Positions 10,321 through 29,892 of a stretch of 51,050 bases of DNA are shown piece by piece. Below the pieces are notes generated by a model, which worked only from the letters and a program-made list of their open reading frames with translations, searched no databases and was not told where the DNA came from. Position 1 is the stretch's first letter. Every line of letters begins with the position of its first letter. Where the stretch lies: positions 1 through 51,050 of the forward strand of contig JAGWVU010000034.1 of the NCBI GenBank assembly GCA_018970725.1, given 5' to 3'. Position numbers and translations under genes: made by a program. This stretch comes from Verrucomicrobiota bacterium. Lineage in GTDB: Bacteria; Verrucomicrobiota; Verrucomicrobiia; Verrucomicrobiales; DEV007.

Positions 10321-10325
10321 GGCTT

Positions 10326-10368
10326 TCACGATTGAAGATATCAACATATCACGATTTGTAAATATGTT
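10326..10368. promoter_or_regulatory. Operator-like region between the SahR-like gene and metK
   Basis: The region is AT-rich in an otherwise GC-rich neighbourhood. Two interlocked perfect inverted repeats are visible: GATAT(10337-10341)/ATATC(10346-10350), and AACATAT(10343-10349)/ATATGTT(10362-10368) with a 12-nt spacer. In addition, ACGATT starts at 10307, 10328 and 10351, about two helical turns apart. The site ends 14 bp before the metK ATG and covers a TAAATAT -10-like stretch, so bound protein should block transcription. It is a good candidate site for the divergent ArsR-type protein; binding itself is inferred. Confidence 0.6.
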
Positions 10369-10382
10369 CTCCCGCTGACCCC

Positions 10383-11588
10383 ATGTCCGACCGCTTCATC
10401 TTCTCTTCCGAGTCCGTCACCGAAGGTCACCCCGACAAGGTGTGCGACACCATATCCGACGCTGTTCTCGACGCCTGCTTCGCGCAGGACCCGAAGTCCC
10501 GGGTGGCCTGTGAGACGATGGTCAAGGACAACGCGGTGATTCTCGGGGGCGAGATCACCACGGGAGCCAAGTTCGACTACCGCGAGGTGGTGAAGGAGGT
10601 GCTCGTGGGGATGAACTACGACTCGAAGTATGCGGAGGGGACGCCTTACAGCTACACCTGCAAGTTCGATGCTCAGAACTTCTTCTTCATGAACCTTCTG
10701 GGGCAGCAGTCCCAGGACATCGCGCAAGGGGTGGACGCGAAGGCTGCGGAGCACAAGGAGACCGCCGAGCAGGGGGCGGGTGACCAAGGCATCATGTTTG
10801 GATACGCATGCGATGAGACCCCGCAGTTACTCCCGGCTCCCATCGCTTACTCCCACATGCTCGGTCGGGAAATCACCCGGATGCGGAAGGCTCGGGAGCA
10901 CACCTGGCTGCGTCCGGATTCGAAGACCCAGGTCTCGGTGGAGTATCGTGGCGGACAAGTTTGCCGGGTCACGGCGGTGGTTGTGTCGACGATGCACGCG
11001 GCTGAGATCGATACCGCGGACATCCGGGAGATTCTGAAGAAGGAACTGATCGAGAAGGTGATTCCCGGGGACTTGCTGACACCGGAAACGCGGTATTACA
11101 TCAACCCGACGGGCAAGTTCGTCATCGGGGGGCCCGAAGGGGATTGCGGCCTGACGGGGAGGAAGATCATCGTGGACAGCTACGGCGGCATGGGGCGTCA
11201 CGGTGGCGGTGCCTTTTCCGGGAAGGATCCGTCCAAGGTGGACCGTTCCGCAGCCTACATGTGCCGTTGGGTCGCGAAGAACATTGTGGCCGCAGGGTTG
11301 GCGCGTCGTTGCGAATTGCAGGTGGCCTATGCCATCGGCTATCCCGAGCCGATCTCGCTGCGTGTCGACACCTTCGGCACCAATACGGTGGACGAGGCGA
11401 AAATCGAGAAGGCGGTCGGTGAGGTGTTCAATTTCAAACCGGCCGAAATCATCCGGCAACTGAACCTGCTGCGGCCGATCTACCGGCACAGCACGAACTA
11501 TGGCCACTTTGGCCGGGAAGACCATTTGGACGCCCTCACCTGGGAGCGCACCGACAAGGCGGAGGCCCTGAAAGCCGCCGCCGCCTGA
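10383..11588 (+). CDS. metK: S-adenosylmethionine synthetase
   Basis: Makes SAM from methionine and ATP in the cytoplasm. The protein is 401 residues, the usual length. Family signatures are [12 protein letters not shown] near the N-terminus, the loop [16 protein letters not shown] near residue 134 and the P-loop-like [19 protein letters not shown] near 275. The leader is only about 60 bp from the divergent gene, too short for a SAM riboswitch, so control probably runs through the SahR-like operator that overlaps the promoter area. ahcY follows 27 bp downstream, giving a two-gene SAM-cycle operon. No clear Shine-Dalgarno sequence is seen before the ATG. Confidence 0.98.
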
Positions 11589-11615
11589 ATCCGCAAACCG
11601 CAATCTGCACGCAAC

Positions 11616-13043
11616 ATGTCAACCACGTTCAACGACTTCAAAGTCAAAGACATCGGACTCGCCGAGTTCGGCCGCAAAGAAATCCACATCGCCGAGCACG
11701 AGATGCCCGGATTGATGGCCATCCGGGAGAAATATGCGGCGACAAGGCCGTTGGATGGGGTGCGGATCACCGGGTCCCTGCACATGACCATCCAAACCGC
11801 GGTTCTCATTGAGACGCTGGCGGAACTCGGGGCGTCGGTTCGTTGGGCCAGTTGCAACATCTTCTCGACGCAGGATCACGCGGCGGCGGCCATTGCTGCG
11901 GCTGGGATCCCGGTCTTTGCGTGGAAGGGTGAGACGCTGGAGGAGTATTGGTGGTGCACGGAGCAGGCGCTCCGGCATCCGCACGGCAAGGGGCCGCAGT
12001 TGATTGTGGACGACGGCGGGGACGCCACCTTGCTCATTCACAAAGGTTTTCAGTTGGAGCACGGGAGCGATTGGGTCGACACGCCGTCCGGCAACGAGGA
12101 AGTGGCGATTATCAAGTCCCTGCTTAAACAAATCCATGCTGATTCACCGAATCTTTGGCAGGGCGTCGTATCGGAGTGCAAGGGGGTTTCTGAGGAGACG
12201 ACCACCGGAGTGCACCGTCTCTATCAGATGGTGGAAGCCGGGGAACTGCTCTTTCCGGCGATCAACGTGAACGATTCGGTCACCAAGTCCAAGTTCGACA
12301 ACCTCTACGGTTGCCGGGAGTCATTGATCGACGGGATCAAGCGGGCCACGGACGTGATGATCGCGGGCAAGGTGGCCGTGGTGTGCGGTTATGGGGATGT
12401 GGGCAAGGGATGTGCCCAGGCCCTCAAAGGGATGGGCGCGCGGGTTGTGGTCACGGAGATCGATCCGATCTGCGCCCTGCAAGCGGCCATGGAAGGGTTC
12501 ACGGTCACGACGATCGAGGACACGCTGGGTTGGGGGAACATTTACGTGACCACGACCGGGAACATGGACATCATCACCCTGGAACACATGGAGCGGATGA
12601 AGGATCAGGCCATCGTCTGCAACATCGGTCACTTCGACAACGAGATCCAGATGGCGCAGCTCAACAGCGCCCCGGGTGTGCGGATGACGCCGATCAAGCC
12701 GGAGGCTGACGGAGCGGTGGACAAGTATACGTTTCCGGGCGGGAACAGTATCTATATCCTGGCGAAGGGAAGGCTGGTGAATCTTGGGTGTGCGACCGGT
12801 CATCCGAGCTTCGTGATGTCCAACAGCTTTGCCAACCAGACCCTCGCCCAGATCGATCTTTGGAAGAACCGGGGCAAATACGAGAACAAGGTCTATCTCC
12901 TCTCCAAGGAACTCGACGAAGAGGTCGCGCGGCTTCACCTGGAAAAGATCGGGGCCAAGCTGACCGTTCTCAGTGCCGCCCAAGCCGAATATCTCGGAGT
13001 GAGCCATAACGGTCCGTTTAAGCCGGCGCATTACCGTTATTGA
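11616..13043 (+). CDS. ahcY: Adenosylhomocysteinase
   Basis: Reversibly splits S-adenosylhomocysteine into adenosine and homocysteine, removing the product that inhibits methyltransferases. The protein is 475 residues, matching the longer bacterial form with its ~40-residue insertion. Motifs include [26 protein letters not shown], the NAD-binding [30 protein letters not shown] and the conserved C-terminus KPAHYRY. It is the second gene after metK, so precursor and product of SAM-dependent methylation are managed together. Its last 26 bp overlap the 3' end of the convergent response-regulator gene, which means the conserved C-terminal codons are read on both strands. Confidence 0.98.
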
Positions 13044-14919: not shown

Positions 14920-15923
14920 CGGGCAACCTTCTGCAGAATACGCGGGTTTACCTGTCCGGTCCGATGGATTTTGTCGGGTCGAGGGTGGTCGAGAAGTATT
15001 TTGGTTGGCGGGCCATCCTCACGCCGATCCTGCGGGCCCTTGCGATCACCGTGTTGGACCCGTGGAACAAGCCGCGGGTTCTCGGTCACAACGCGCATTA
15101 TGGGCGGGAGGGGCTGTTACCTTCCAAGGAACGTTATGAAACCGATTTCTGGACCTGCCATCAGACGCGGGCGCGTTTTGAACAGGAGTTCTGGGAGACG
15201 GTGCACATCGACCTGCGGATGACCGACATCAGTGATTTCGTGATCGCCTTCGTTCCGACGAATATCTACAGCGTGGGAACGGTGCACGAGATCATCACGG
15301 CGCGCAACCAGTTGAAGCCGGTGCTCCTGATCAGTCCGCCGATCAGTTATGATTTTTTTCCGGAGCTCAAGAGTCTGACCGCGGAGCAGAAAAAGGCGCT
15401 CAAGTTCTACGGTTTGAAGGAAAATCCCCACGGCCTGCCGAGCCAGTGGTATGGCAACATCGTGGGCGGTCACAACATGTTCGATGGCTTTGGCTGGGAG
15501 CATCTTGACTTGAAAGGACCGGACTTTTACGAACGGCTCATCGGGGATTTTCTCGACTCCCAGCCCGCGCCGGGGGAGAACCCGAAGTGGCAGCAGACGC
15601 GGAAGTGGGTGGCCGGATTCAAGCCGTTGCGGAAGTTGAAGGGCGGGATCCTCGATCACGTGGTCTTTGCGGACGATGGTGAAGCTCGCTTGTTGCGGGA
15701 GGCGTTGGAAGGAGCCGCGGAACGGGAGCGGCACTATTTCTGGTATAACCACGCCTACCAACCGAAGCGGACGTTCCTCAGCCATCTGCTCTCCATCGCG
15801 TCCGGTCATATTCCGCCGAAGACGACGATCCTTTCGGAATACGACGAGAGTGGCGCGGTGCGGCAGAGACCGCTGGAATCGATCGACGACAACTGGCTTT
15901 TGCTGGGAGCTGATAATCTTTGA
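14916..15923 (+). CDS. Nucleoside 2-deoxyribosyltransferase-like protein
   Basis: A 335-residue soluble protein. The N-terminus VYLSGPMDFV and the later segment SDFVIAFVPTNIYSVGTVHEIITA match the order of elements in nucleoside 2-deoxyribosyltransferase (NDT) folds: a Y-x-S-G-P nucleotide-contact loop, an aspartate-rich strand, then G-T-x-x-E with the nucleophile-type Glu. The rest, about 170 residues including WQQTRKWVAGFKPL, is not something I recognise and is longer than simple NDTs (~150-160 residues). Enzyme activity is inferred from fold only. It is coupled by ATGA overlap to the ACT-domain gene, and the next gene starts at the stop codon or 24 bp later. Confidence 0.6.
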   Translation: MTGNLLQNTRVYLSGPMDFVGSRVVEKYFGWRAILTPILRALAITVLDPWNKPRVLGHNAHYGREGLLPSKERYETDFWTCHQTRARFEQEFWETVHIDLRMTDISDFVIAFVPTNIYSVGTVHEIITARNQLKPVLLISPPISYDFFPELKSLTAEQKKALKFYGLKENPHGLPSQWYGNIVGGHNMFDGFGWEHLDLKGPDFYERLIGDFLDSQPAPGENPKWQQTRKWVAGFKPLRKLKGGILDHVVFADDGEARLLREALEGAAERERHYFWYNHAYQPKRTFLSHLLSIASGHIPPKTTILSEYDESGAVRQRPLESIDDNWLLLGADNL

Positions 15924-15946
15924 GACGGTTTCACGTCCAAGGGTCG

Positions 15947-16948
15947 ATGAATTCACGGTTGGTTTGGTGGAGTCTGTGGGGTCTGCCCGTTGCTTTATGG
16001 GCGCAAGAGGCCCGGGAGCCGGTTCCGGTGGAACCGCTGCCCTCCCTGGCGATCGAGGCGGGCGTTGGGGAAGCTCCGTTCCGGCGCGGACCGGTCACCG
16101 CGGCACAGGGGACTCCGGTCCGGCTCCGGGTCCGAGGGCCAGCGGGTGAGGGCGGGGTGCGCTGGTATCAGATCGTTCCGGAAACAGCGAGGTATTACAA
16201 AAACGCCAACCATCCTTGGGAGCCGGAAGCGTATGCCTGGGTCGGGTTCGGAAAGATTGACTACCGGATGGTGGAAATCGCAGGTTGGCGCGGGAAGAGC
16301 GAGGTGCAGGTGGATCCGGCCGCCGATTTCCGCGGGGCGAGCGTATCCCCGTATTACCACCCGGATTTGGGGAGCTTCTGGCTGCAAGTCCGGGTGGAGG
16401 GGGCGGGGAAGACGCTTCGGTCCGCCGGGTTGGAGGAGAACGGGGAAAGGAATCTTTCGCCCGCGGTCTTCCGGTTGTCGGTCCAGACGGACTGGAGTTA
16501 TCTCGGTTATCTGACCGGCTTCTTCAATGTTCCCGGCCTGTTCGGCTCAGTTCCGGGGCAGAGTTACCATTACATCGGGGTGGATTGCGCCGATGTGTTG
16601 GTCGCGGCGCACCGCCGGTGGAAGGGAAAAGGTGAGGGCGGGGATGTCAATGTCTCGATGTTGGTGAACGAGTGGGAGCGGGTCGCGGAGTTCCCGGTGG
16701 TGGCGGGCGTCCCGAAACGCGCGTTGCGATGGGGCGTGGACGTTCATCCGGGCGATGCGATCGCAGTGCGTTACACCCCGGGGAAGGCGTTCCAGCACAT
16801 CGGAGCGCTGTCGGAAGATGGGAACCGGAACGGATGGCTGGATGCCGCCGACGAGATCATCCACGCGGGACCGCAAGCCCTGGCCCCGACGTGCTTGCGC
16901 GAGGGAGGGTTTGACGGGGACGTGGTGATTCTCCGCCCTCCGGATTGA
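15947..16948 (+). CDS. Exported protein with an NlpC/P60-like C-terminal domain
   Basis: About 333 residues starting with a signal peptide (MNSRLVWWSLWGLPVALWAQ). The middle is unrecognised. The C-terminal third has GVDCADVLVAAHRRW, a Cys in the position of an NlpC/P60 nucleophile. About 80 residues later comes AFQHIGALSEDGN followed by DEIIHAGP, which resembles the H-V/I-G ... I-H-A part of that family. I infer a cysteine peptidase or amidase acting on cell-wall or other periplasmic material, with moderate certainty. An alternative start is TTG 15920, overlapping the previous stop as TTGA. The last 92 bp overlap the 3' end of the phosphopantetheinyl transferase gene on the other strand. Confidence 0.6.
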   Translation: MNSRLVWWSLWGLPVALWAQEAREPVPVEPLPSLAIEAGVGEAPFRRGPVTAAQGTPVRLRVRGPAGEGGVRWYQIVPETARYYKNANHPWEPEAYAWVGFGKIDYRMVEIAGWRGKSEVQVDPAADFRGASVSPYYHPDLGSFWLQVRVEGAGKTLRSAGLEENGERNLSPAVFRLSVQTDWSYLGYLTGFFNVPGLFGSVPGQSYHYIGVDCADVLVAAHRRWKGKGEGGDVNVSMLVNEWERVAEFPVVAGVPKRALRWGVDVHPGDAIAVRYTPGKAFQHIGALSEDGNRNGWLDAADEIIHAGPQALAPTCLREGGFDGDVVILRPPD

Positions 16949-17684
16949 TCCAAACGAGTCGCGGCGCGGGGCCCGGCCGGTGGATGGCGAGGGCGGCGGA
17001 AGCGCCAGCATGGACCTCGCATCCGGGCAGGGGAAGGAGTTGATACAAACCGGACCGGGAGGGATCATCCCGCCAGAGAACGCGGCCCGGAGTGCGGTGA
17101 CCAAGGAAAACGTCCCGGTCCACCTCGAGGTCCCGGAGGGGAATCTGGAGACCGGTGCCGAGCGCCTTGAGGAAGGCTTCCTTGGCGGTCCACAACCGGA
17201 GCAGGGCCCGATTTCCGAGGGCGGAAGGAAGCGCTTGGATTTCGCGTTGCTCGCGGTCGCTGCACACGGTGCGGAGGAGTTCCCCGAGACGGTCTTCCGA
17301 GGCGATCTGCTCGAGATCGACCCCCAAGGCACCGTTCATGGAAAACGCCATGAGCGCTTGGTCGCCGCTGTGGGAGAGGTTAAAGTGCAAGGGGAGGCCG
17401 GGATTGGCGAGGGAGGGTTTGCCGAACGCGGAAACGGCGAACTCGATGCGGTCCGGGGCCATGCCGGTATAGGCGGCGAGGATTTTCCGGAGCAAAGCGC
17501 GCGCGACGACAAAGCGGCACCGGTCCCGCTCGAAGCGATAAGCCTCCGCGCGGCGGAGTTCGTCGGCGGAGAGGGATTGGAAATCCGAGTCGGAAACACG
17601 GCTTCCGGTCTGCAGATTCACGAGCCAAAGATGGATCTCCCCGGCAGGGGGCGGCGCGGCGATCTGCGGAACCGGGGAATCCAT
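16857..17684 (-). CDS. 4'-phosphopantetheinyl transferase, Sfp type
   Basis: Transfers the phosphopantetheine arm of CoA to carrier-protein serines. The protein is 275 residues. Typical elements are the FNLSHSGDQAL segment, GVDLEQI with the Mg-binding Asp and Glu, and WTAKEAFLKALG with the W-x-x-K-E-A-x-x-K signature. It starts 3 bp after the NRPS stop in the same direction, so it is almost certainly the activating enzyme for the three carrier domains of the two megasynthases upstream. The C-terminal ~40 residues are an unusual Pro/Arg-rich extension that coincides with the antisense overlap with the NlpC-like gene. A slightly shorter ancestral protein is possible. Confidence 0.93.
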   Translation of the reverse strand: MDSPVPQIAAPPPAGEIHLWLVNLQTGSRVSDSDFQSLSADELRRAEAYRFERDRCRFVVARALLRKILAAYTGMAPDRIEFAVSAFGKPSLANPGLPLHFNLSHSGDQALMAFSMNGALGVDLEQIASEDRLGELLRTVCSDREQREIQALPSALGNRALLRLWTAKEAFLKALGTGLQIPLRDLEVDRDVFLGHRTPGRVLWRDDPSRSGLYQLLPLPGCEVHAGASAALAIHRPGPAPRLVWINPEGGESPRPRQTLPRASTSGPGLAVPRG

Positions 17685-17687
17685 GGG

Positions 17688-20600
17688 TCAGGAACCAGAG
17701 GCGACCGGCGTGCGGTCCGGGCGGAGGGGAACGCCGCCGACGGAACCGCTGGGGCGGGAGGCGGCCCGCCGGTCTTCAATTTCCCGGGCCAAAAGGCGGA
17801 GCGTCGGTGCCTGGAAGAGTTTGCCCAACGGCAGGGAGACACCCAGTTTCTTTTGGATGGCGGAGAGAAGGCGCATGCCGAGGAGCGAGTGCCCGCCGGA
17901 GGCGAAAAAGTCAGCCTCCGGATTGGTCCCGGAGAGATTCAGCGCCTGATTCCAGAGAGGGGCCAGCTCCTGCTCGGTGGAGCTGAGGACCGGCCCGGTC
18001 TCCTGCGGTTCCGGCGGAAGCGGAAGGAAAGCCGGCGCAGCGAGGGACCGGGTATCGATCTTGCCATTGGCGGTGATGGGCAGGGCGTCCAGAATGGTGA
18101 TGGCGGAGGGCACCATGTAAGCAGGCAGCTTGGAGCGAAGGTACTCCGCGAAGTCCGCGACGCTGGTGGTCTCACCAGGATGGAGGCAGACGTAGGCAGC
18201 GAGGAACCGGCCCGCCGCGCCTTCTCCAAGCACCGCCACCTTGCATTGGCGGACTGAAGGGTGCCGATCGAGCAGGACCTCGACTTCCTCCGGTTCCACG
18301 CGGAATCCGCGAATCTTGACCTGTTGATCGATGCGGCCGAGGAACTCGATGGAACCGTCCGGGCGGTGGCGGCAAAGGTCCCCGGTGCGATAGAGCTTGC
18401 TCTCCGAGGAGGGATCGAACGGATCATCGACGAAGCGCGCCCGGGTCAAATCCGGGCGGTTCCAATACCCCAGGGCGACGCCGTCTCCTCCGGCCCAGAG
18501 TTCGCCCGGAATGCCCGGCGGCGCGAGCTGGCCGTTGGGGTCGACGATCCAGGCGGTGCAATTGGCGCCGGGGCGTCCGATGGGAATCCGGGCACGGTCG
18601 AGATCCTCCGGGACGATCGGGTGGTGGGTCGTCATGGTGGTGTTTTCCGTCGGGCCGTAGGCATTGACCAAGCGACAACCCGGGTGCGCCGCATGGATTT
18701 TCGCGAAGTGGGAGGGTGAGGCGACATCCCCTCCGGTGATGACTTGCTGCATCCCGGCGAAGGCATCGGGACGGACATCGGCCAAGGCTTCGAAGAGCGC
18801 GGTGGCGAGGATGACGTGGGTGACGCCCTCCGAGCGCATTTGATCGGCCACGCCATCGATGGAAAGCGGGCCGGGAGGCGGGAGCACGAGGCGTCCGCCA
18901 TGCAGCAGGCTGCCAAAGACCTCGAAGATGGAGGCATCGAAGCAGATCGAGGCCATTTGCATGGTGCGTTGGCTGGCATCGAAGCGGGCGTAATCGGTCC
19001 CACAGACGAGGCGGATGATGCCGCGGTGGGAAAGCAGGGCTCCCTTCGGATTGCCGGTGGAACCGGAGGTATAAATGAGCACCGCCTCGTTTTCCGGGGC
19101 GAGCGTCGGTGGCGGGGCGAGACGTGGAGCCTCGGCCCAGGCAAGGGCCTGATCCATGGGGAAGGTCTTGACTTCCCGGGGCAATCGATCCCGGAGACCC
19201 TGCTCGGTGAGCACCAGCAGGCTGGAGCTGTCTTCCACGAGGAAGTGGATGCGCTCCGCGGGATACTGCGGATCGATCGGGACGTAGACACAACCGGCCT
19301 TCAACACGCCGAGGAGGGCCGCGTAGAGGGCGGGGGAGCGTTCCAAAAAGAGAGCGATGCGCGCGCCCGGGGGAATCCCGGCTTCAAGCAGATGGTTGGC
19401 GACGTGTTGGCTCAGGCGGTCGAGTTCGGCATAGGTCAGGCTGGTCCCGGGACCGCGCAATGCGACGGCTTGAGGGTGGGCCGCCACCGTTTGGGCGAAG
19501 AGACCGGGGATGGTCTGATGCCGGGGATACTCGGTCCGGGTCTGGTTCCAGTCATGGATCCTGCGGATCTGCGTGGTGGTCATCGCGGACAAAACCTCCG
19601 TGAGCGGGCGTGAGGGTCGGGCCGAGGCAGATTCGAGCATGGCGAGGTAGGTATCCATCCAAGCCTCGATGGTCGGTCTTTCATAGAGGGTCGTGTGGAA
19701 GTCGCACCGCAGTTCCACTCCGTCCCCAGTCTCGAAAGCCTTGAGATGCAGGGGCTGGATGGAAAAGATTCGTTCCACCGGACGGGCGCTGGCGCGAAGC
19801 CCCTCCAACGGTAGGCTCGGTTCGACCCGCTCGAGATTGAACACCGCCTCGATCAACGGCCGTTGGTCCGGCCCGAGCGTCTTCACCAAGCGCCCGTAAG
19901 TGGTCGTCTGATGCTCGAGGCTGTCGAGCAGGCGGGCCTGGATCTGACGAAGATGGCCAGAGAAATCCCCGGACCGATCGATCGGTGCGATGAAGGGCAG
20001 GACGTTGACGCTGTGACCGATCAATCTCCCGGAACCGGCTCCGGATTGCCCGGCCGCGGGGAACCAGATCGCGAAGCGCGATTCCCGGCTGATGCGGTGG
20101 AGCAGCAGTTGGAACGTGCCGAGGAGAAGGCTGAAGAGCGTGGCCCCGGATGCGGTGGCGCAACGCTTGAGCGCGATGAGTTGGTCCCGATCCAAATGGC
20201 GGTGGACGGTATCACATTTGGGATCGGGCTCGGCCGGAGGCGGGAAATCGAGAGGCAACCGCAAGGGGGCGACGGGTTCGGCGAATGCGGAGAGCCAGAA
20301 CGCATCATCCGCCGAGGCGCTCTGGGTGCGGATGGAGTGATCGACGAAATCGGAAAAACTGGCCGATGGAGGCAAGGCCGGGGTGAGACCTTCCCGGTGG
20401 GCATTGTAAAGTTCTCCCAACTCCCGGAGCAGGACGCCATAGGACCACCCGTCACAGGCGAGGTGATGGCAGTTGAGCAGCAACACGTGTTCCTCGGGAG
20501 ACCGGCGGACAAGGACCGCCCGGAGCAGCGGCCCCCGCTCCAGATCGAAGGGAGTGGTCCGTTCACGGTCGAGAATCTTCTGGAAGGCGGACGCCCCTTC

Positions 20601-22652
20601 GGCGCCCGGAAGAGAGGAAAGGTCTTCCAAGGGAAGGGTGAATCCGGATGCGGACTGAATGGTGAAACCCTCCCCGTTGGACAGAAACGTGGCGCGGAGG
20701 GCTTCATGGCGCTCCACAAGGTCCCGCAGCGCGCGCTCCAAGGCCCCTGCAGCGAGGGAACCCGAGAGCGTGACGGACTGGATTTCGTTGAAACACAGGG
20801 ACCCGTGCGGGCCGATCTGGGAAGCCAGCCAGATCTCCGCCAAGGGTTCACTCAAGGGCTGCACCCGGTCCGGGGAAATTGGCGCGGAAAGGACCGGAGG
20901 GGGCGGCGGAAGTTCCGATGCGGAGTCGAGGAACCCGCCCTTTTGCATTTCAATGATCGCGTGGTGGATTGCATTGAGAATGAACTCCACCTCCTCGGCG
21001 GAATGGGCCGCGGTGAGCCGACAAGGGCGATTTTCGAGCACATGGACGCCCCGGTGACGAAGGTGGAAAAAGAAAAGTCCGGCGGATTCGCGCCCCTCCG
21101 TGACGCGGAAGCGCATGAGGGCGCCGAACGATTCCAAGCGGAGCGGCGACCCGCCGTGTTGGAAAATGCGGTTTGCGCCCTGGACCAGATGGTCTGATTT
21201 TGCGCGGATTCCGGACCAGAAGTCCGCTTCCTGCCCGCTCAAATGCTCCAGCATCGCTCGGGCCGCGGCCAGGGCCAACGGGTGCGGCCGGTCCTCCGGG
21301 TCGGACCCATCCTCCCCAATCCTGGAGAGCGCAACCGCCTGACCGGCAATCACTCCAAGGGGCAGACCGCCTCCCAACGCGTCGCCATGGACGGCAAGAT
21401 CCGGCCGTATCCCGTGGAAATCCGCGGCTCCCCCCGGGCCGAACGAAAATCCGGAGACAGTTTCGTCGAAGATGAACAGGCTGCCGGAAGAGATGGTCAA
21501 GTCGCGCAGCCGGGTGACAAGTTCCTGGGAATGGAGGGGATCCATGATGACCGCCGCCAGTTCGCTGGCGCGGGAGCGGAGGGTCTCGAGGGATTCGGCC
21601 GCTGCGCAAGGCAAAATCAGGAAGTCGGGTCCGGTGGCCCGGGTTCCAACGGACGCGGAACCGAGAACGACCACCAGGCTCCGACCGGTGATGGAGCGCG
21701 CGAGCCGGGCGGCGCCGTGGAGAGCTTCCGACGCGCTTTTCATGAACCAAGCCCGTTCGTGGCCGGTGAGTTCACAGAAAAGCCGGGACGTTTCACCGGT
21801 TGGAGCAGCGCCCATGGCGGGTTCCTGGCGATCGATCGCAGCGTGGAGCGCCGTGCGTAAAAAGCCCGGGGAATGTCCGAGGGGAGGGGAACCGGAACCG
21901 CCGTGGAGATCGACATATTCGTTTCCGTCTGCATCGACCAGTCGGGCTCCGTTGGCGCGGACGATGGTGAGCGGGTAATTGATTTCCCTCCAGCGGCGGT
22001 GGCAACGCGGATCGTGGGACCAGGCACGGCAGCCGGAGGCGAGGTCCCGGGAGGCGCGGGTCTTTGTCAGGTAGGCGCGGATGAGATCGCCGACATGGGC
22101 GCTTTGTCGGGCGGTCAGGGCCTCGTCGAAGAGTCTGTTGATGACGGGCGATGGGGCCGGCACCGCCAGGCGGACCGGAGCTGGAGCTGGAGCTGGGGGC
22201 GTGATCCGCGGTGATGCCGGCTGGACCGGCGGGTTCTGCAGAAGGTCGAGCTGTTGCCGCATCAGGTCCAATTGCCGGGTGATCACGGTCTCGAGGGAGA
22301 AGGCCGGGGCGGGAGGAACCTCGGGGGATGGAAGGGCGGGAGCCGTGGGTTCCCCGGGCACTTCCTCCGGCGCGGGGTCGAGCGCATCCGGTGGGAGAAC
22401 CGTGTCCAGATGGGCGACCATGGCGTCCGTGGTGAGCAAATCCGACATCATCTGGCGGAGCGTGATGGAAGTTTGGAAACGGACTTGGATGGCCCGGCAA
22501 ACCTGGGCGAGGAGCAGGGAGTCGAATCCGAGTTCCAGAAGCGAGGCGTCACCCGCCAGATCGTGATCCGGAATGCCGGACAATCCGCTGAGGATCTCGC
22601 GCACGGCATGGTTGATCCGGGGGGTTCTGGAGCTGGATGGTGTCGGGGTCAT
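17688..22652 (-). CDS. Hybrid synthetase: ACP - aminotransferase (lacking catalytic Lys) - condensation - adenylation - PCP
   Basis: 1654 residues. Order by eye: ACP about 10-85 (S45 in LGFDSLLL); Pro-rich linker with a helical segment; class III aminotransferase about 200-625; condensation domain about 650-1080 with HHLACDG (H729, H730, D734) intact; adenylation domain about 1095-1560 with YTSGSTGNPKG, NAYGPTE, the GRIDQQVKIRGFRVEPEE core and NGKID; PCP with S1589 in GGHSLLG. No thioesterase or reductase follows. The aminotransferase keeps FDETVSGF, but the PLP lysine of the G-K-x-x-G-G-G-L-P motif is D424 (HGDALGGGLPLG). The specificity residues read by hand are D-A-F-I-I-G-A-T-M-K, closest to valine-type codes. 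The ATG overlaps the PKS stop (22649-22652). Confidence 0.92.
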   Translation of the reverse strand: MTPTPSSSRTPRINHAVREILSGLSGIPDHDLAGDASLLELGFDSLLLAQVCRAIQVRFQTSITLRQMMSDLLTTDAMVAHLDTVLPPDALDPAPEEVPGEPTAPALPSPEVPPAPAFSLETVITRQLDLMRQQLDLLQNPPVQPASPRITPPAPAPAPVRLAVPAPSPVINRLFDEALTARQSAHVGDLIRAYLTKTRASRDLASGCRAWSHDPRCHRRWREINYPLTIVRANGARLVDADGNEYVDLHGGSGSPPLGHSPGFLRTALHAAIDRQEPAMGAAPTGETSRLFCELTGHERAWFMKSASEALHGAARLARSITGRSLVVVLGSASVGTRATGPDFLILPCAAAESLETLRSRASELAAVIMDPLHSQELVTRLRDLTISSGSLFIFDETVSGFSFGPGGAADFHGIRPDLAVHGDALGGGLPLGVIAGQAVALSRIGEDGSDPEDRPHPLALAAARAMLEHLSGQEADFWSGIRAKSDHLVQGANRIFQHGGSPLRLESFGALMRFRVTEGRESAGLFFFHLRHRGVHVLENRPCRLTAAHSAEEVEFILNAIHHAIIEMQKGGFLDSASELPPPPPVLSAPISPDRVQPLSEPLAEIWLASQIGPHGSLCFNEIQSVTLSGSLAAGALERALRDLVERHEALRATFLSNGEGFTIQSASGFTLPLEDLSSLPGAEGASAFQKILDRERTTPFDLERGPLLRAVLVRRSPEEHVLLLNCHHLACDGWSYGVLLRELGELYNAHREGLTPALPPSASFSDFVDHSIRTQSASADDAFWLSAFAEPVAPLRLPLDFPPPAEPDPKCDTVHRHLDRDQLIALKRCATASGATLFSLLLGTFQLLLHRISRESRFAIWFPAAGQSGAGSGRLIGHSVNVLPFIAPIDRSGDFSGHLRQIQARLLDSLEHQTTTYGRLVKTLGPDQRPLIEAVFNLERVEPSLPLEGLRASARPVERIFSIQPLHLKAFETGDGVELRCDFHTTLYERPTIEAWMDTYLAMLESASARPSRPLTEVLSAMTTTQIRRIHDWNQTRTEYPRHQTIPGLFAQTVAAHPQAVALRGPGTSLTYAELDRLSQHVANHLLEAGIPPGARIALFLERSPALYAALLGVLKAGCVYVPIDPQYPAERIHFLVEDSSSLLVLTEQGLRDRLPREVKTFPMDQALAWAEAPRLAPPPTLAPENEAVLIYTSGSTGNPKGALLSHRGIIRLVCGTDYARFDASQRTMQMASICFDASIFEVFGSLLHGGRLVLPPPGPLSIDGVADQMRSEGVTHVILATALFEALADVRPDAFAGMQQVITGGDVASPSHFAKIHAAHPGCRLVNAYGPTENTTMTTHHPIVPEDLDRARIPIGRPGANCTAWIVDPNGQLAPPGIPGELWAGGDGVALGYWNRPDLTRARFVDDPFDPSSESKLYRTGDLCRHRPDGSIEFLGRIDQQVKIRGFRVEPEEVEVLLDRHPSVRQCKVAVLGEGAAGRFLAAYVCLHPGETTSVADFAEYLRSKLPAYMVPSAITILDALPITANGKIDTRSLAAPAFLPLPPEPQETGPVLSSTEQELAPLWNQALNLSGTNPEADFFASGGHSLLGMRLLSAIQKKLGVSLPLGKLFQAPTLRLLAREIEDRRAASRPSGSVGGVPLRPDRTPVASGS

Positions 22653-25600
22653 GAGATTTTCGAAGGGGGGGCTTGGGGCGTCTCGGGCGGAACCGCATCC
22701 ACCCAGTGGCGCTGGCGTTCGAAGGGGTAGGTCGGCAGGGCTACCCGGGACCGGGAGCTGCCGTTGTAGAAGGTGGCCCAGTCGACCGGGACGCCTTGGA
22801 CCCAGAGTTGACCGATGGTCCGGATCAGTTGGTCGTGGAAACGATCCGGCGGGGTGTCCTCCGCGAAAAGAGCGAAGGAACGAGGTCCCTCGACGCATGG
22901 CCCGGGGCCGATGGCGACGAGGATCCGGTCGGGCCGCCCGGAGTTTGCGAGGGCCAGAGCTTGGTGGAGCCCGGCAGGGTTCTCAGGATGGGGAGGGCGT
23001 GCAGAAGAAGGGTTGAAATCCCGGGCCGAGAGCGGTTCCCCGGTCGAACCGGAAAACACGGGAATGCCGGGCTCCTCCAGGGGCAAGCCGTGGACGGGGG
23101 GCGCGATGGCGTCGGCTCCGTGCGGATGACCCGGGAGAAGCGTGAACCTCAGGGCGGTCTGCCGATCCATCATCCCGGAGAGCGTCGCGGCCACCCACTC
23201 GCCCGGACCGCAGCCGATCAGGGCGGAGGGGCGGATGCCCCAATGAATCAGCAGATTGGTGAGGGCATGGGACACCGCAAATGCGGTCAGCCGGGACACG
23301 TCGGGATCCCTGAGCCGGCGCGCAGCCAGCTCCGGATCGATGCCGCGGGGCGGGCAAAGGAGTTCGCTCAGTTCGCATCCGAGTCGGGGGCGCAGAAGTT
23401 CCGAGGTAACTTCCAGATCGCGGCGGAAAACGGGTTCGGCCGCGAAAAGAGAGCGTGCCAGTTCGATAGAGGGGGGCCCTTCAGCGGGAAAAAGAAACGT
23501 GACCGGCGGGTTTTCACGGCCAACTTCTCCGGTGCAGGTGGCCCCGGTTGCGAGGGCGCGCGCCAGGGATGGGAAGTCGCTCGCGACCACGGCGCGGCGG
23601 TGGGGGAAGGTCTTGCGCCCGGTGGCAAGCGTCCACGCCGCGTCCGCGGGATCGGCGGTCCCGGGAGCCGCGGCAAATCGGCCGAGCTGGGTCGTCATCT
23701 CATCCAACGCGGCAGGTGAGCGGGCCGAGAAGATGAAAAGACGCGGGCCGGGTGGGGATGGTTGGACGGTCCGGACGGGAGATTCTTCCAGGATGAGGTG
23801 GGCGTTGGTTCCCCCGACCCCGAACGAACTGACGGCGGCGCGACGCGGGGCTCCGTGCCGGCCTTGCTTCCAGGGAACCTCGTTGGTGTTGATGCGGAAT
23901 GGAGTGGATGGAAAATCGATCCGGGGGTTCGGATCACGGAAGTGCGCGACGGGGGGTAGGGAGCCTTTTTCGAGGACGAGAGCCGCTTTGATGAGGCCGC
24001 AGACCCCCGAGGCCACTTCGAGATGGCCGATGTTCGCCTTGAGTGAACCAATGGCGCAAAAGCCGTTTTCCGTGGCTCCGCCGTCCCGGAAAGCCTTGGT
24101 GAGCGCCCGGATCTCCATCAGATCCCCGAGCGGGGTGGCTGTTCCATTGGTCTCCACATAGCCGATCGATCCCGGCTCGATCCCGGCGTCGTGCTGGGCC
24201 ATGCGGACGACCTCGGCCTGTCCCTCCACGCTGGGAGAAGCGTAGCTGTGCTTGACGCCTCCGTCATTGTTCAGGCCGAGCCCGCGGATCACGGCATGGA
24301 CGTGGTCCCCGTCCCGAAGGGCGTCGCTCAAACGCTTGAGCATGACCACGCCGCCTCCGTTTGAAAAAACCGTGCCGGACGCAGCGGCATCGAAGGGACG
24401 GCAGCAGCCATCCGCGGAAAGGATGCCGTCCGGCGTGTGAAAGTAGCCGCGGCGCAGGGGGAGCGTTATGGTAACGCCTCCGGCCAGGGCCATGTCGCAC
24501 AGACCGGACCGCAGCGACCGGCAGGCCTCCGCGATGGCGACCAAGGAGGTGGAGCAGGCGGTCTGGATGGTGAGGGCGGGGCCCCTGAGATTGAGTTTGT
24601 AGGCGGCGCGGGTGGCAAGGAAATCCTTTTCGTTTCCAAGGACGGTGTTGAGAGAGCCACCATGGAGGGAAGCGAGGAAATCCGCACGGAAACGCGGGTC
24701 CGCGCAGAGGTTGGCGAGAAGGTAGGTGTTGAGCGAGGCCCCGGCGTAGACACCGACCCGGCTCGTCTCCACGCCTGGGGCGTGGCCGGCCCGCTCCATC
24801 GCTTCCCAAGCGAGTTCGAGAAAGAGGCGGTGTTGGGGGTCGATCAATCGAGCCTCGTTGGGCAGGAGCCCGAACAAAGCGGCATCGAAACAATCGACAT
24901 CCTCAAGGACTCCCTTGGCAGGCAGGTAATCCGGCCGGTCCGCTTGGTCGGGGGCATCGGGTTCTCCTGGGCCGAAGCGGGTGATCGAATCCACACCGCG
25001 GGACAAATTGGTCCAGAAGGCTTCGGGATCCCCGGCCCCCGGGACGCGCAACGCCATGCCGATGATGGCCACCGCGGTGTCCTCCGAACGTTCGCGCGCG
25101 GGAGGGACCAAATCCCGCGGGGCCGGGCGGACGGGCTGGCCGTCCAAGGCGGCGGCTTGGGCGGCGATGGTTGGGAGTTCGAAGAGATCCGCGAGTTCCA
25201 AACGCGGGCCGAACTGCTTGCGGATGGCGGCGTGCAAGGCCACCAACTGGATCGAGGTCCCGCCAAGGTCGGTGAAAAGATCCTCGATGCCGACCTCTTC
25301 GAGCCCGAGCCCACGGCACCAGATGGCGCTCAGCAACCGCTCCGTTTCCGTTCCCGGTGGCACCAGAGGTCGGACAAGATCCGGCCGGGGACGGCGTTGC
25401 GCCTCCAAAGCGGCATGAAACCGCTCCGCGTCCCACCATTGGGTCGCGATCTCGAGGGCGATCCCGAAGGGCAGGCCGGGACGTCCGGGAGCCGGTTTTT
25501 CGCTTGTCGCCTTCCCGTCGTCCGCCGCCGCGGGATCCTCGGGAATCGGTGAAATCGCCCCGGCCTCAAGAGTCGGAATCCGGAAATCTCCGGTCGCCGT

Positions 25601-27112
25601 GCGCACCGCTCCGGTGGCATCGAGAAAGCGTCGGCAAGGTTCGTTCCGTGCGGTTTCGCGGAAGACAAATGCCAGCGTTTCCGCTCCAGCGGATCGGGCC
25701 CGTGCCGCCAGATCCAGCAGCATCGCCCGCTCCACCCCCTTGCCCAGGGCGCGGCAACTCAGGAGAAAGAGATCGATCCCCATTTCCGCCTGGGGCGTGA
25801 TCCGGTAGAGGACGGCGCCGACCAATCCGTAGTCGCCAAATCGGTCGCGAACGTGGACCGTCAGGCAGACCGACCCTTCCGCGATGCGTCCGGCGAATTC
25901 CGCAGCGGTTAATTGGAGGCCGCTCGCGTTGAATTGATTCGTCCGCTTGGCGAGTTGCGCCAGGCGTGGCCCATCATCGACATCGCTCCGGCGGATTTCG
26001 ATCTTGAGTTCCAAGCCGCGGAGAAACTCTTGAAAACTCGAGGAACGGTGGAGGACTTTGCGGCGTTCGGGCTCCGTGGCGTAGAACTCGGCGCGGAGCT
26101 TGTCTTCCCCGGTGACCCGGCCCACGTCCAACGGCCACAGATGGCGGAGAAAGGTCGATCGCTCCGCCGGTTCCTCCGGCAGCAGAAAGGCCTGAACCTC
26201 CGGACAATTGGCCCGGACCTCGGCGATCTCGGCCGGGTTGTCGTCGAGAAAGACGAAACTGTCGAGACCGAGGCGCAACTCCGCCGCCAGCTCCCGGAGA
26301 TTCTGCGATTTGGCGCTCCAGTTCACCTTCCAGCCGCTGAAATCCTCCCTGCGCAGGCCCAGAGCCCCGGCCCGATGGGAAAACACGCGCTCAACATCAG
26401 TTTCCGCATTCTTGGAGCAGAGACCGAGCAGCACCCCGTTCGCCCGTCGCGAAAGGGCGAGCGCGCGCAACTCGGCAAAGGCACCGCCCAGGTCCAGCGT
26501 CCCGGGATCGTCCTCCCCGCAAACCCCGCCCCAGAGGGTGTGATCCGCGTCGAGCACCAGCACCTTCACAGGGGGACGGAGCCGACGGTTGAGACGGCGC
26601 ACCGCGACACCGGCCAGAGCCGCGAACATGGCCCCGGTGTAAGGAATCCTCCCGGCCAGATCGGACTCGGGATCGAACAACTCGCGGATACCGAAGCTGT
26701 CGGCCCACCCGCCCGAGGAAACCGCTTCCACGTTGGCGAGGTCGGCCCAGCCGTCGATGAGTTGCTGCTCCTGGCCCGACATCCCGGGTTCGGGGCTTGG
26801 TTCCGGGCAGAAAAAGATCAGGTGCTGCCCGGAGCACCGTGTCGCCAGATCCCGGATGGCGTCCGCGAGCGCGGGGACCGCCGTGGCCGCAGCCCCCTCT
26901 GCCGCGAGGTCGGTCAGGCGGATGAGGAAAAGATTGCAACCTCCCGTGTTGCGCGAACTGGCGCTCGCCGGGTCCAGCGCCTCCTGAAACACTTGGTTGA
27001 ATCCGCTGAACCGCGGCGTGGCCTCGATGCCGGTGAGTTGGAGCCACCTGACGAGCGGAGGTCCCAGGGGTTCGGCAGTGAAAGAGGCGGTGATCTGGAG
27101 GGGAAGATTCAT
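22649..27112 (-). CDS. Hybrid PKS: FkbH-like starter domain - ACP - ketosynthase (KS0-like) - degenerate acyltransferase
   Basis: 1487 residues. Residues 1-540 form an FkbH-like region with HAD motif DADHTLWGGVCGED (D188, D190), FVFLDDNPAEI and the TNQFN...FGDYGL part. FkbH proteins load glyceryl units from 1,3-bisphosphoglycerate onto an ACP. An ACP follows (S620 in LGGTSIQL), then a ketosynthase about 685-1115 with C853 (TACSTS) and H1030 (NIGH). The usual EAHGTGT motif reads ETNGTATPLGD, so the first catalytic His is N989. The acyltransferase starts FLFPAEG and has GCGPGE in place of GHSxGE (G1302 at the Ser position). It also lacks the ~120-residue small subdomain, but the post-AT YPFERQRHW linker is kept. 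It is first in the operon. Confidence 0.92.
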   Translation of the reverse strand: MNLPLQITASFTAEPLGPPLVRWLQLTGIEATPRFSGFNQVFQEALDPASASSRNTGGCNLFLIRLTDLAAEGAAATAVPALADAIRDLATRCSGQHLIFFCPEPSPEPGMSGQEQQLIDGWADLANVEAVSSGGWADSFGIRELFDPESDLAGRIPYTGAMFAALAGVAVRRLNRRLRPPVKVLVLDADHTLWGGVCGEDDPGTLDLGGAFAELRALALSRRANGVLLGLCSKNAETDVERVFSHRAGALGLRREDFSGWKVNWSAKSQNLRELAAELRLGLDSFVFLDDNPAEIAEVRANCPEVQAFLLPEEPAERSTFLRHLWPLDVGRVTGEDKLRAEFYATEPERRKVLHRSSSFQEFLRGLELKIEIRRSDVDDGPRLAQLAKRTNQFNASGLQLTAAEFAGRIAEGSVCLTVHVRDRFGDYGLVGAVLYRITPQAEMGIDLFLLSCRALGKGVERAMLLDLAARARSAGAETLAFVFRETARNEPCRRFLDATGAVRTATGDFRIPTLEAGAISPIPEDPAAADDGKATSEKPAPGRPGLPFGIALEIATQWWDAERFHAALEAQRRPRPDLVRPLVPPGTETERLLSAIWCRGLGLEEVGIEDLFTDLGGTSIQLVALHAAIRKQFGPRLELADLFELPTIAAQAAALDGQPVRPAPRDLVPPARERSEDTAVAIIGMALRVPGAGDPEAFWTNLSRGVDSITRFGPGEPDAPDQADRPDYLPAKGVLEDVDCFDAALFGLLPNEARLIDPQHRLFLELAWEAMERAGHAPGVETSRVGVYAGASLNTYLLANLCADPRFRADFLASLHGGSLNTVLGNEKDFLATRAAYKLNLRGPALTIQTACSTSLVAIAEACRSLRSGLCDMALAGGVTITLPLRRGYFHTPDGILSADGCCRPFDAAASGTVFSNGGGVVMLKRLSDALRDGDHVHAVIRGLGLNNDGGVKHSYASPSVEGQAEVVRMAQHDAGIEPGSIGYVETNGTATPLGDLMEIRALTKAFRDGGATENGFCAIGSLKANIGHLEVASGVCGLIKAALVLEKGSLPPVAHFRDPNPRIDFPSTPFRINTNEVPWKQGRHGAPRRAAVSSFGVGGTNAHLILEESPVRTVQPSPPGPRLFIFSARSPAALDEMTTQLGRFAAAPGTADPADAAWTLATGRKTFPHRRAVVASDFPSLARALATGATCTGEVGRENPPVTFLFPAEGPPSIELARSLFAAEPVFRRDLEVTSELLRPRLGCELSELLCPPRGIDPELAARRLRDPDVSRLTAFAVSHALTNLLIHWGIRPSALIGCGPGEWVAATLSGMMDRQTALRFTLLPGHPHGADAIAPPVHGLPLEEPGIPVFSGSTGEPLSARDFNPSSARPPHPENPAGLHQALALANSGRPDRILVAIGPGPCVEGPRSFALFAEDTPPDRFHDQLIRTIGQLWVQGVPVDWATFYNGSSRSRVALPTYPFERQRHWVDAVPPETPQAPPSKIS

Positions 27113-27323
27113 CAGGATGGAAAGACGCGGAAGGCAGGCATTTGCCGGAGCACGACCATCAGGAAGAATTTACTATAAAAACAAGAAACAAAAAGAGTTT
27201 TCACGATGAATTTCGCGGAATTCGGGCAAATTGAAGGGCAAAAGCGGAAGTTCTTCTGTCGAGTGGCTTCTCCTTGCGACGACTGCTTGTCAGTTGGGGC
27301 GCGAAAGGGGATAGTGAACCCCT
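27113..27323. promoter_or_regulatory. Divergent intergenic region between PKS operon and ctpA
   Basis: The 211-bp gap contains an A-rich stretch (about 27165-27200) including ACTATAAAA, much richer in A+T than the flanking genes. It must hold promoters for both directions. On the minus strand TATAGT (27172-27177) could be a -10 box, but no good -35 is seen at the right distance. No repeat or binding site is recognised. Confidence 0.35.
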
Positions 27324-28829
27324 ATGAGAATGAATCTGCTCTCCCCCCGGCGGAACCTCTGCCTATGGGGCTTCCTCTGGCTCGGTCCGATGGGGTTTTG
27401 GACCGGAATGGCCCAGGAGCCCGCCCCGGCTCCTCAGGCTCCGGCGCCGAAGACCGAGCCTGTGAAAAAGTCGGAACCGGTGGTGAAAGGGGGCGAGGAA
27501 CTGGGATTCGAGCAGATCGAGATCCTCGTGCACGTGATTGAATTGATCCGGCAAGAGTATCATGACGAAAGCCGGGTGACCTACCAGCGGCTGATTGACA
27601 GCGCCTTGGAAGGAATGCTGGCGAACCTCGACCCGCACTGCCAGTTCATGCCCAAGGAAATCTTCGAGCAGATGCAGAAGGAGACGGGTGGGACTTATGA
27701 CGGGGTCGGGATCACGGTCGCATTTCGGAACGAGATGCTGACGATCGTGGCGGTCCGGGAAGAAGGACCGGCGGCGCGGGCGGGGATTTTGCCTGGGGAC
27801 CAAATCATCAAGGTCAACGAGATCATGGCGGACAAGCTCGGGTTGGCGGAGGCCATGGACATGATGAGAGGCAAGCCCGGCCAGCCATTGAAGCTGACCT
27901 TGCGGCGCCCGGCGAACAACCAGCTGTTGGAGGTTTCCCTGATCCGGGAGGTCATCCGCGAAGCCACGGTCACCGACGTCATGCTGCTGCCACCGCGATA
28001 TGCCGCGGATCGCAGGATGGGCTACCTGCGGCTCACCCAGTTCGGTGAGGGGACCGTCAGGGAGCTGGTGGACGCCTTGAACGATCTCGAGCAGAAGGGG
28101 ATGGAAGCGCTGGTCATGGACCTCCGCAACAATCCCGGGGGCCTGCTGACGGCGGCGGTCAACACCTGTGGGGAGTTCGTCCCCCCGGATACCGTGGTTC
28201 TCACGACCGAGGGGCGCAATGCAAGCCGTAACACCAAAACCTATCGCACGCCGCCGGGAACAAAGCACGCCCGCGAGTATCCCGTGGCCATTCTGGTCAA
28301 CCATGGCAGCGCGAGCGGGGCGGAGGTCGTGAGCGGAGCGTTGCAAGACCTCAAGCGGGCTCTCATTATCGGTGAGACGACCTTCGGCAAGGGATCGGTC
28401 CAACAAATCATTCCGGTCCCCAACAGCGAGGGCAACGCCATCCGTCTGACCACGGCCCGCTACTACACACCGAGCAAGCGCACGATCCACGAGCACGGCG
28501 TGGAGCCGGACATCGTTTCCACCATGACGCCGCAGGACGAGCGCAATCTCATGATGTGGTTCCGTCGCGATACCCTGGCTGCCGCGGAATTGAAGCAGAT
28601 CGAGCAATGGGAGGACCGGCAACTGGCCCGGGCCGCCGATTCGCTCAAGGGCGCCTTGCTCTTTTCCGGAACGTTCGCGGGCGCCAAGGCGAAACCGGCG
28701 GCCCCCGCCACCCCGGCCAAAAGCGCGACACCGGTTCCTCCCAAACCGGCCGCCGCGGCGGCTCCCCGACCGGCGCAACCGACCACGCCTCCCGCTCCTG
28801 CAAAGCAAGCTGCGCCAGGGTCGAACTGA
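27324..28829 (+). CDS. ctpA: C-terminal processing protease (S41 family)
   Basis: A secreted serine protease with a Ser/Lys dyad. The protein is 501 residues. A signal peptide (about 1-30) is followed by a Pro/Ala/Lys linker, a PDZ domain (VREEGPAARAGILPGDQI), then the S41 core with NHGSASGAEVVSGAL (S331 as nucleophile) and GETTFGKGSVQQ (K356). The 25-residue Ser-Lys spacing agrees with the family. A low-complexity Pro/Ala tail of about 55 residues ends the protein. Likely substrates are periplasmic proteins trimmed at the C-terminus or cell-wall enzymes. tsaD starts 7 bp downstream in the same direction. Confidence 0.95.
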   Translation: MRMNLLSPRRNLCLWGFLWLGPMGFWTGMAQEPAPAPQAPAPKTEPVKKSEPVVKGGEELGFEQIEILVHVIELIRQEYHDESRVTYQRLIDSALEGMLANLDPHCQFMPKEIFEQMQKETGGTYDGVGITVAFRNEMLTIVAVREEGPAARAGILPGDQIIKVNEIMADKLGLAEAMDMMRGKPGQPLKLTLRRPANNQLLEVSLIREVIREATVTDVMLLPPRYAADRRMGYLRLTQFGEGTVRELVDALNDLEQKGMEALVMDLRNNPGGLLTAAVNTCGEFVPPDTVVLTTEGRNASRNTKTYRTPPGTKHAREYPVAILVNHGSASGAEVVSGALQDLKRALIIGETTFGKGSVQQIIPVPNSEGNAIRLTTARYYTPSKRTIHEHGVEPDIVSTMTPQDERNLMMWFRRDTLAAAELKQIEQWEDRQLARAADSLKGALLFSGTFAGAKAKPAAPATPAKSATPVPPKPAAAAAPRPAQPTTPPAPAKQAAPGSN

Positions 28830-28836
28830 AGCCGCG

Positions 28837-29892
28837 ATGGCCCGGGATCAGCCGGTGAAGGGGCGCGAACTGGTGCTTGCCCTGGAGACTTCCTGCGACG
28901 AGACGGCGGCGGCGGTCGTTCGCGATGACGGGGAAGTTCTGGCGAATGTGGTCGCTTCGCAGATTGCCCTGCACCGGCCGCACGGCGGTGTGGTGCCGGA
29001 ACTTGCCTCGCGCGAACACAATCTGGCCCTGTTGCCGGTGGTGAGCGAGGCGCTGAGGAAAGCGGAGATCGATCTTCGGGACCTCGGTTTGATCGCGGCC
29101 ACGGCGGGACCGGGTCTTGCGAGTTCGCTCCTGGTGGGCAACACGTCAGGGAAGACCCTTGCGTTGGCCTTGGGGTTGCCATTTTTTGCGATCAATCATT
29201 TGGAAGGGCACCTGCTATCTCCGTTCCTCGGGCGGGCGGGTGGCGTTCAAGGCTGTGTCGCCCTCATCGTCAGCGGCGGGCACACCCTGCTGCTCGAGTT
29301 GCGCGGGGTGGGCGACTACCGCTTGCTCGGCGCGACGCGGGATGATGCGGCGGGTGAAGCTTTTGACAAGGGCGCCAAGCTCCTTGGCCTTCCCTATCCG
29401 GGGGGGCCGGAAATGGATCAACGGGCGCGGAGCGGCAATGCCGCGGCCTTTGATTTTCCGCGCAGCATGGTGGACTCGGGGGACCACGAGTTCAGCTTCA
29501 GCGGCTTGAAGACCTCGCTCCGCTATCTTTTGGCGAAGATGGACCCTGCCGCGATGGCGGAACGGCTCGACGATCTCTGCGCCTCTTACCAGGCAGCGAT
29601 CGTTGAGATCCTGACCCTGAAGGCTTTGGCCGCGGTGCGGGCCACCGGTCGGCGGGCTCTCGCCGTGAGCGGGGGCGTCTCACGGAATTCCGCTCTCCGG
29701 GACAGTCTGGCCCGGGCCTGTGGCGGGGAGGGGGTGGAGTTGTTTCTCGCTCCGGCGGACTTGGCGACGGACAATGCGGCCATGATCGGTTACGCGGCCT
29801 TGTTGAAGCACCGGGCCGGACAAGCGCCGAGCCCGCTCTCGGAGGACATCGACCCGAACCTGGAGCTCCCGGTCAACGCGGGATGGCCCTGA
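28837..29892 (+). CDS. tsaD: tRNA N6-threonylcarbamoyladenosine (t6A) transferase
   Basis: Transfers threonylcarbamoyl onto A37 of ANN-decoding tRNAs, together with TsaB/TsaE. The protein is 351 residues with an ASKHA fold. Recognisable features are LALETSCDETAAAVV at the N-terminus, VPELASREHN, AATAGPGLASSLLVG, the metal-binding HLEGH, LIVSGGHT and GGVSRNSALR. It lies 7 bp after ctpA. Its last 20 bp overlap the end of the convergent caspase-like gene. Confidence 0.97.
   Translation: MARDQPVKGRELVLALETSCDETAAAVVRDDGEVLANVVASQIALHRPHGGVVPELASREHNLALLPVVSEALRKAEIDLRDLGLIAATAGPGLASSLLVGNTSGKTLALALGLPFFAINHLEGHLLSPFLGRAGGVQGCVALIVSGGHTLLLELRGVGDYRLLGATRDDAAGEAFDKGAKLLGLPYPGGPEMDQRARSGNAAAFDFPRSMVDSGDHEFSFSGLKTSLRYLLAKMDPAAMAERLDDLCASYQAAIVEILTLKALAAVRATGRRALAVSGGVSRNSALRDSLARACGGEGVELFLAPADLATDNAAMIGYAALLKHRAGQAPSPLSEDIDPNLELPVNAGWP

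Follow-up and report, generated by a model that had tools for sequence, protein, structure and literature searches.

Ketosynthases (KS) that lack the His of the HGTGT motif are named KS0 (PMC5764310) and have been reported as non-elongating transacylases (PMC8456789), while some lines have an FkbH domain that loads glyceryl (PMC8949500, PMC5318452), as far as the available text of these papers goes. Here we analyse a hybrid polyketide synthase (PKS)/nonribosomal peptide synthetase (NRPS) line encoded on the minus strand of a 51,050-nucleotide stretch (hereafter the window; positions 1 to 51,050 of contig JAGWVU010000034.1) from a Verrucomicrobiota bacterium. The line belongs to a family with the domain order FkbH-ACP-KS-AT-ACP-AMT-C-A-PCP-TE, which some members spread over two open reading frames (ORFs) and others have without FkbH; it follows this order up to the PCP and occupies the same locus as an intact line of the same genus (L039). 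Intact lines of this kind from the host's family and order (e.g., L041, L042 and L045) keep the KS His, the Ser and His of the acyltransferase (AT) and the Lys of the aminotransferase (AMT), and in this they differ from the window line. With a probability of about 0.6, we read the latter as a functional line in which an elongating beta-amino module has turned into a non-elongating relay.

Three successive catalytic domains of this module have lost key residues, as a sequence-only reading of the window had claimed, and all three replacements are present in the sequence. The KS reads VETNGTATP, with N989 where the family letters are HGT, but keeps Cys853 and His1030; the AT reads LIGCGPGEW, with G1302 (GHSVGE in the family), and the AMT reads VHGDALGGG, with D424 in place of the pyridoxal phosphate (PLP) Lys (mostly TYGKVVGGG in the family). 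Among 176 distinct KS pieces from related and unrelated PKSs, 170 have a letter in the His column, which is His in 168 and Asn in two; the Lys column is filled in 33 of 34 AMT pieces (31 Lys, one Glu, one Asp), and the exceptions in both columns are the window line and L038, a line from genome G002. The AT Ser is kept in 142 of the 152 pieces with a letter there (161 AT pieces in total, many of them fragments); besides the window and L038, eight actinobacterial pieces align Gly, some of them weakly, so that a dead AT is, by itself, no rarity. The actinobacterial lines with such ATs (L057, L058, L061, L076, L078, L084 and L104) share the Gly but differ from the window line in having the usual letters in the KS Cys and His columns, no AMT match and an intact KS-AT that follows. 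Gln replaces the active Cys in 14 KS pieces, none of them from this line's family. Among 28 of 30 order-level loci, a set that overlaps with the earlier genomes, we found 26 His and two Asn in the KS, 25 Ser, two Gly and one uncovered position in the AT, and the AMT Lys in all seven loci reaching it, the exceptions being again the window and L038.

The window KS shares with the KS0s of trans-AT PKSs, as described in the available parts of PMC5764310 and PMC8456789, the kept transfer Cys and the lost HGTGT His. Unlike them, it has an AT remnant in cis, lies beside a dead AMT and has relatives with an intact cis AT, and its transacylation is predicted. A trans-AT line is the usual setting of a KS0, although this setting lies outside the definition given in the accessible text of PMC5764310.

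The AT and the AMT are eroded well beyond their catalytic residues. The AT score lies below the Pfam cut-off (20.2 vs 32.7), 76 residues are missing relative to L041, and the segment that reads from GGMLSV to HAFHS in relatives, which we take to be the small subdomain with the catalytic His, is absent in L038 and mostly absent in the window; of the features of a functional malonyl AT, the GHSxG serine has given way to GCGPG and the His segment is deleted. The AMT lacks 52 residues relative to L041 and, compared with the AMTs of intact relatives, has Asp for the PLP Lys and no AGTF loop, yet it remains above the Pfam cut-off (85.1 vs 30.5), and a domain search alone would therefore report it as present; it has the modelled fold of a class III PKS/NRPS aminotransferase without the PLP lysine of a functional one. 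Both remnants are modelled as largely folded despite their erosion (mean pLDDT, a per-residue model confidence score, of 74.5 for the KS-AT, with parts below 50, and 82.0 for the AMT). The best Foldseek match of the KS-AT model is, at the level of fold, the ClbI KS-AT module (8xju; TMq 0.84, 34% identity), and that of the AMT remnant is a PKS/NRPS hybrid aminotransferase domain (6kfm; TMq 0.87, 30% identity). In the domain search of the ORFs, the carriers, C, A and the phosphopantetheinyl transferase (PPTase) exceed their Pfam cut-offs and FkbH exceeds its NCBIfam cut-off. Neither stops nor frameshifts mark ORF1 or ORF2 as pseudogenes; as had been claimed, the frames are open, the stop of ORF1 and the start of ORF2 share 4 bp (ATGA), and 3 bp separate the ORF2 stop from the ORF3 start. 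The accompanying statement that everything else is intact stands for FkbH, the carriers, C, A and the PPTase, which are recognisable, but not for the AT and AMT, eroded past the catalytic residue, nor for the missing thioesterase (TE).

Rather than being an isolated decay, the triple loss occurs in two species of the genus. L038 (G002, QQNE01000032.1), a single frame of 3181 residues from the second species, reads NGT, GCGVG and GETVGG, i.e., Asn, Gly and Glu at the three sites, and is the only other dead line found in the genomes searched, whereas L039 (G001, CAMCXS010000006.1) is intact at the KS, AT and AMT sites. The three residues, whose co-variation among homologues the sequence-only reading had proposed to follow, are lost together in two lines and kept in the third. 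In all three genus members the line lies between the same flanking genes, which by eye we take to be CtpA and TsaD. At sites that intact relatives conserve, the window and L038 have the same replacements in the KS (Y793S, D795N, E824V, Y831F, I938V, A959S and H989N), identical ones in the AT (Q1211E, H1301C and S1302G) and further ones in the AMT; the AT deletion in L038 amounts to 75 residues. In a tree built from the live domains of six lines, the two group together with 100% support. Since the flanking genes differ by 3-38% between the window and L038, the dead state has persisted far longer than strain-level divergence. Recent isolated decay, which would have undone the earlier proposal, is ruled out by L038 itself, the shared substitutions and the shared deletions. 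An assembly or sequencing error might be suspected in a window from a 108-contig assembly, but a separate assembly (that of L038) has the three losses in diverged sequence with similar deletions, which leaves such an error a negligible chance.

The domains of the line differ in how far they are constrained, which we expressed as the window-L038 distance divided by that of an intact, more deeply split pair, L039-L041. This ratio is low for FkbH (0.48), C (0.47), A (0.31), ACP2 (0.67) and PCP (0.18), and high for KS (1.68), AT (2.86) and AMT (5.34). Given that AMT (84%) and KS (82%) are the most conserved parts between L039 and L041, the reversal in the dead pair is marked. Among columns invariant in 19 intact relatives, 12 of 128 have changed in the window KS and 48 of 80 in its linker/AT (7 and 37, respectively, in L038), while 79 (window) and 70 (L038) of the 156 columns invariant in 18 intact AMTs have changed. 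The pairwise omegas for window-L038, which are rough values, are 0.081 for FkbH, 0.077 for KS, 0.080 for A, 0.156 for AMT and 0.332 for AT; all of them lie below 1 (likelihood-ratio statistics range from 27 for AT to 305 for A). By these sequence comparisons, the AT and AMT are strongly eroded and the KS little, while FkbH, C, A and the carriers evolve normally. The earlier proposal, in which a formerly elongating beta-amino module became a relay that no longer elongates, thus gains from an intact line in relatives, a loss common to two species and constrained flanking domains.

These data also bear on whether the dead module is simply bypassed, with KS, AT and AMT serving only as linkers or scaffolding and C taking the acyl group from ACP1, or another enzyme loading ACP2. 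The KS is indeed accelerated too, most in the window lineage, and the eroded AT and AMT gave largely folded models; however, the KS omega is like those of FkbH and A, few of its invariant positions have changed (the 12 and 7 of 128 given above), and Cys853, His1030 and the ACP2 serine are kept, so that we consider a bypass unlikely. The kept Ser of ACP2 and its 77% identity between the window and L038 suggest that it still receives an acyl group; together with the constrained KS, this argues, without proving it, for a relay in use rather than a bypass. A productless line in overall decay, whose frames have simply not yet had the time to acquire stops, is distinctly unlikely. Such decay would fit the loss of three domains and the TE, and the 53-62% identity of ORF1, ORF2 and the PPTase between the window and L038, which makes them more diverged than most neighbouring genes. 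Against it stand the 3141 stop-free residues of ORF1 and ORF2 (60-62% identical to L038), the FkbH, C, A and carrier motifs, a PPTase recognised by Pfam, omegas of about 0.08 for FkbH, KS and A, and C, A and PCP distances smaller than those between intact lines. We thus favour a line that probably now makes a shorter product over a broken gene. We also rejected the idea that the AT has drifted neutrally after the split: about 13% identity would be expected at the fitted t of 4.65, and 43% is seen over 203 aligned residues, a comparison that is a lead and not proof, as aligning an eroded AT inflates identity.

In the relay that we propose, FkbH, which its score places among the glyceryl transferase/phosphatases, would load a three-carbon acyl unit onto ACP1, presumably glyceryl from 1,3-bisphosphoglycerate judging from its family, other three-carbon units being possible. 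The KS, with its transfer Cys but without the decarboxylation His, would only pass the acyl group to ACP2 in a KS0-like manner; no malonyl would be added by the dead AT and no amine installed by the dead AMT, and the C domain would join the acyl group to a PCP-bound amino acid (FkbH -> ACP1 -> KS0 -> ACP2 -> C -> aminoacyl-PCP). A more detailed version, in which the relay delivers glyceryl to a peptide bond, purifying selection maintains the dead AT and AMT as folded scaffolds, and the role of the TE has moved to a separate C-A-PCP-TE protein, is tentative. The line would still elongate if a malonyl transferase acting in trans loaded ACP2 and Asn989 supported decarboxylation. The KS is otherwise well kept, and ATs working in trans are well known; nevertheless, His occupies this column in the 168 other KS pieces with a letter there, the dead AMT puts the ancestral product out of reach, and PMC5764310, in its available text, names KS0 by the loss of this very His, all of which makes continued elongation very unlikely.

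Concerning termination of the proposed relay, a TE is present in 20 of the 23 lines with a sequenced end, all 20 from outside the genus, and the three lines without it are those of the window, L038 and L039. A TE query gave one match in each of the three genus genomes, which in the window's genome (G000) is a C-A-PCP-TE protein of 1435 aa (G000:C88:48725-53029; with the exporter, L170:6726-12688). Its gene is followed by an ABC exporter of the cyclic-peptide type (TIGR01194, 433 bits vs a cut-off of 286), conserved in the genus at 72-83%. The protein is matched at 1e-100 in 50 of 74 family genomes, but full-length at 58-71% identity only in the genus members (3 of 74), other matches being partial or weaker; the G002 orthologue lies in two pieces on two contigs. 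Its C domain reads HHILFDG and, like that of the window line, has Txo2/Txo1 as closest solved chains. Because the TE-less line and the C-A-PCP-TE protein occur in the same three genomes, we propose termination in trans, with this protein as a weak candidate for the terminating module: it might take over the PCP-bound product, add a second amino acid and release the product, which might exit by the adjacent exporter. The small glyceroyl-aminoacyl product that the sequence-only reading had expected after one amino acid is not supported in that form, as no TE follows the final PCP of the line and a second residue may be added before release. In two further lines, L153 and L156 (G139 and G137), the TE nucleophile position is Cys (GYCFGG), not Ser.

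Several points weigh against the relay or parts of it. The chemistry described here is predicted from sequence. The dead state is known from only two genomes, which together represent a single event. The KS tip length is 0.336 in the window and 0.020 in L039, and the constraint on the window KS may be weakening as well. Synonymous sites have nearly saturated, which makes the omegas rough, and many codon-fit pairs other than window-L038 could not be fitted: all five C pairs, three FkbH, three AT, one AMT and two A pairs lie at the upper divergence bound, and in two bound-hitting pairs (window-L039 for AT, L039-L041 for A) the fit failed, so that the values used are those of window-L038, with C left out. 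The A-domain pocket letters are DAFIIGATMK in the window, DVCIIGATLK in L038 and DVCFLGSTFK in L039, and as the two dead lines differ, their products may differ as well; most intact relatives have DAFWIGGTFK-like letters, presumably a valine code from which we draw no firm prediction, with DPYFMGPTYK, DILQLGLVWK and DIESIAGIYK as exceptions. The trans partner is weakly suggested by co-occurrence in one three-genome clade and the missing TE. Finally, proteins of G023 (1386 aa), G057 (1394 aa) and G009 (1406 aa) match the A-PCP part of the C-A-PCP-TE protein at 37-42% identity, that of G023 also the TE, and stand-alone terminating modules may therefore not be peculiar to TE-less lines.

The genus sample comprised three genomes, those of the window (G000), L038 (G002) and L039 (G001). 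ORF1 was matched at 1e-80 in 87 of 141 relatives, many over the KS part only; within the host's family, at least 22 of 74 genomes, counting that of the window, have a match that begins with FkbH and reaches the KS or AT. A search with the first 1151 residues of ORF2 gave 35 of the 74 family genomes at 1e-60. A further search gave 64 of 386 genomes drawn from the order at 1e-200, and the genome-contig search covered 107 relatives, of which the best 80 were retained. Among plasmid records, 1349 match; one spans 80% of ORF1, and all stay below 60% identity. The host genome encodes another large protein with a KS (G000:C31:16468-18405; open frame of 4028 aa), and many relatives' genomes have similarly matching frames some 4000 aa long. 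The features of the line are collected in Table 1.

Table 1. Coordinates in the window of the hybrid line, its domains and the adjacent PPTase gene.
Feature	Position	Strand	Length	Remarks
ORF1	22649..27112	-	1487 aa	FkbH-ACP1-KS-AT remnant
FkbH domain (aa 182-501)	25610..26569	-		DxD motif present; TIGR01686 271.4 bits vs cut-off 146.65
ACP1	25145..25333	-		PF00550; GGTSI serine present
KS, KS0-like	23777..25075	-		Cys853 and His1030 kept; first His replaced by N989
N989 codon	24146..24148	-		
AT remnant (approximate limits)	22793..23497	-		nucleophile Ser replaced by G1302; catalytic-His segment largely deleted
G1302 codon	23207..23209	-		
ORF2	17688..22652	-	1654 aa	from ATG at 22652; ACP2-AMT remnant-C-A-PCP, without TE
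ACP2 (approximate limits)	22401..22589	-		GFDSL serine present
AMT remnant	20931..22142	-		PLP Lys replaced by D424; AGTF loop deleted
D424 codon	21381..21383	-		
C domain	19590..20861	-		HHLACDG present; closest solved chains Txo2/Txo1
A domain	18018..19520	-		pocket letters DAFIIGATMK
PCP	17781..17969	-		GGHSL serine present; protein stops about 30 aa downstream
ORF3, PPTase gene	16857..17684	-	275 aa	beside the line in 3/3 genus members sampled

Around the line, the PPTase gene overlaps an opposite-strand ORF (15920-16948) by 92 bp (window 16857-16948), and no Rfam match reached the gathering score in 15900-28900. A 939-residue protein with a caspase domain (PF00656) is encoded at window 29873-32692 on the minus strand and has the same place in both genus relatives. 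At window 9379-13043, an ArsR-type helix-turn-helix is fused to a methyltransferase beside an S-adenosylmethionine synthetase, as identified by Pfam, and a neighbouring gene is, by eye, presumably that of adenosylhomocysteinase.

No cis-AT line with this triple loss was found in the open literature searched, PMC6855096 and PMC5490422 included, as far as its texts were available, and the earlier statement that no such line is described is to that extent uncontradicted, although KS0s and dead ATs each have precedents when taken singly. The case is unusual in that a maintained megasynthase has lost activities domain by domain while its locus in a relative holds an intact control; even so, it varies on known kinds and does not found a new one. 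Product changes in megasynthases are generally attributed to the gain, loss or swap of whole modules. Here, three successive activities were lost within an uninterrupted line whose flanking domains are still constrained. The intact orthologue at the same locus makes it testable whether a KS0 arose from a normal cis-AT KS and why the dead domains are kept and, if our reading is true, the two states would form a natural before-and-after pair for assembly lines that shorten their products.

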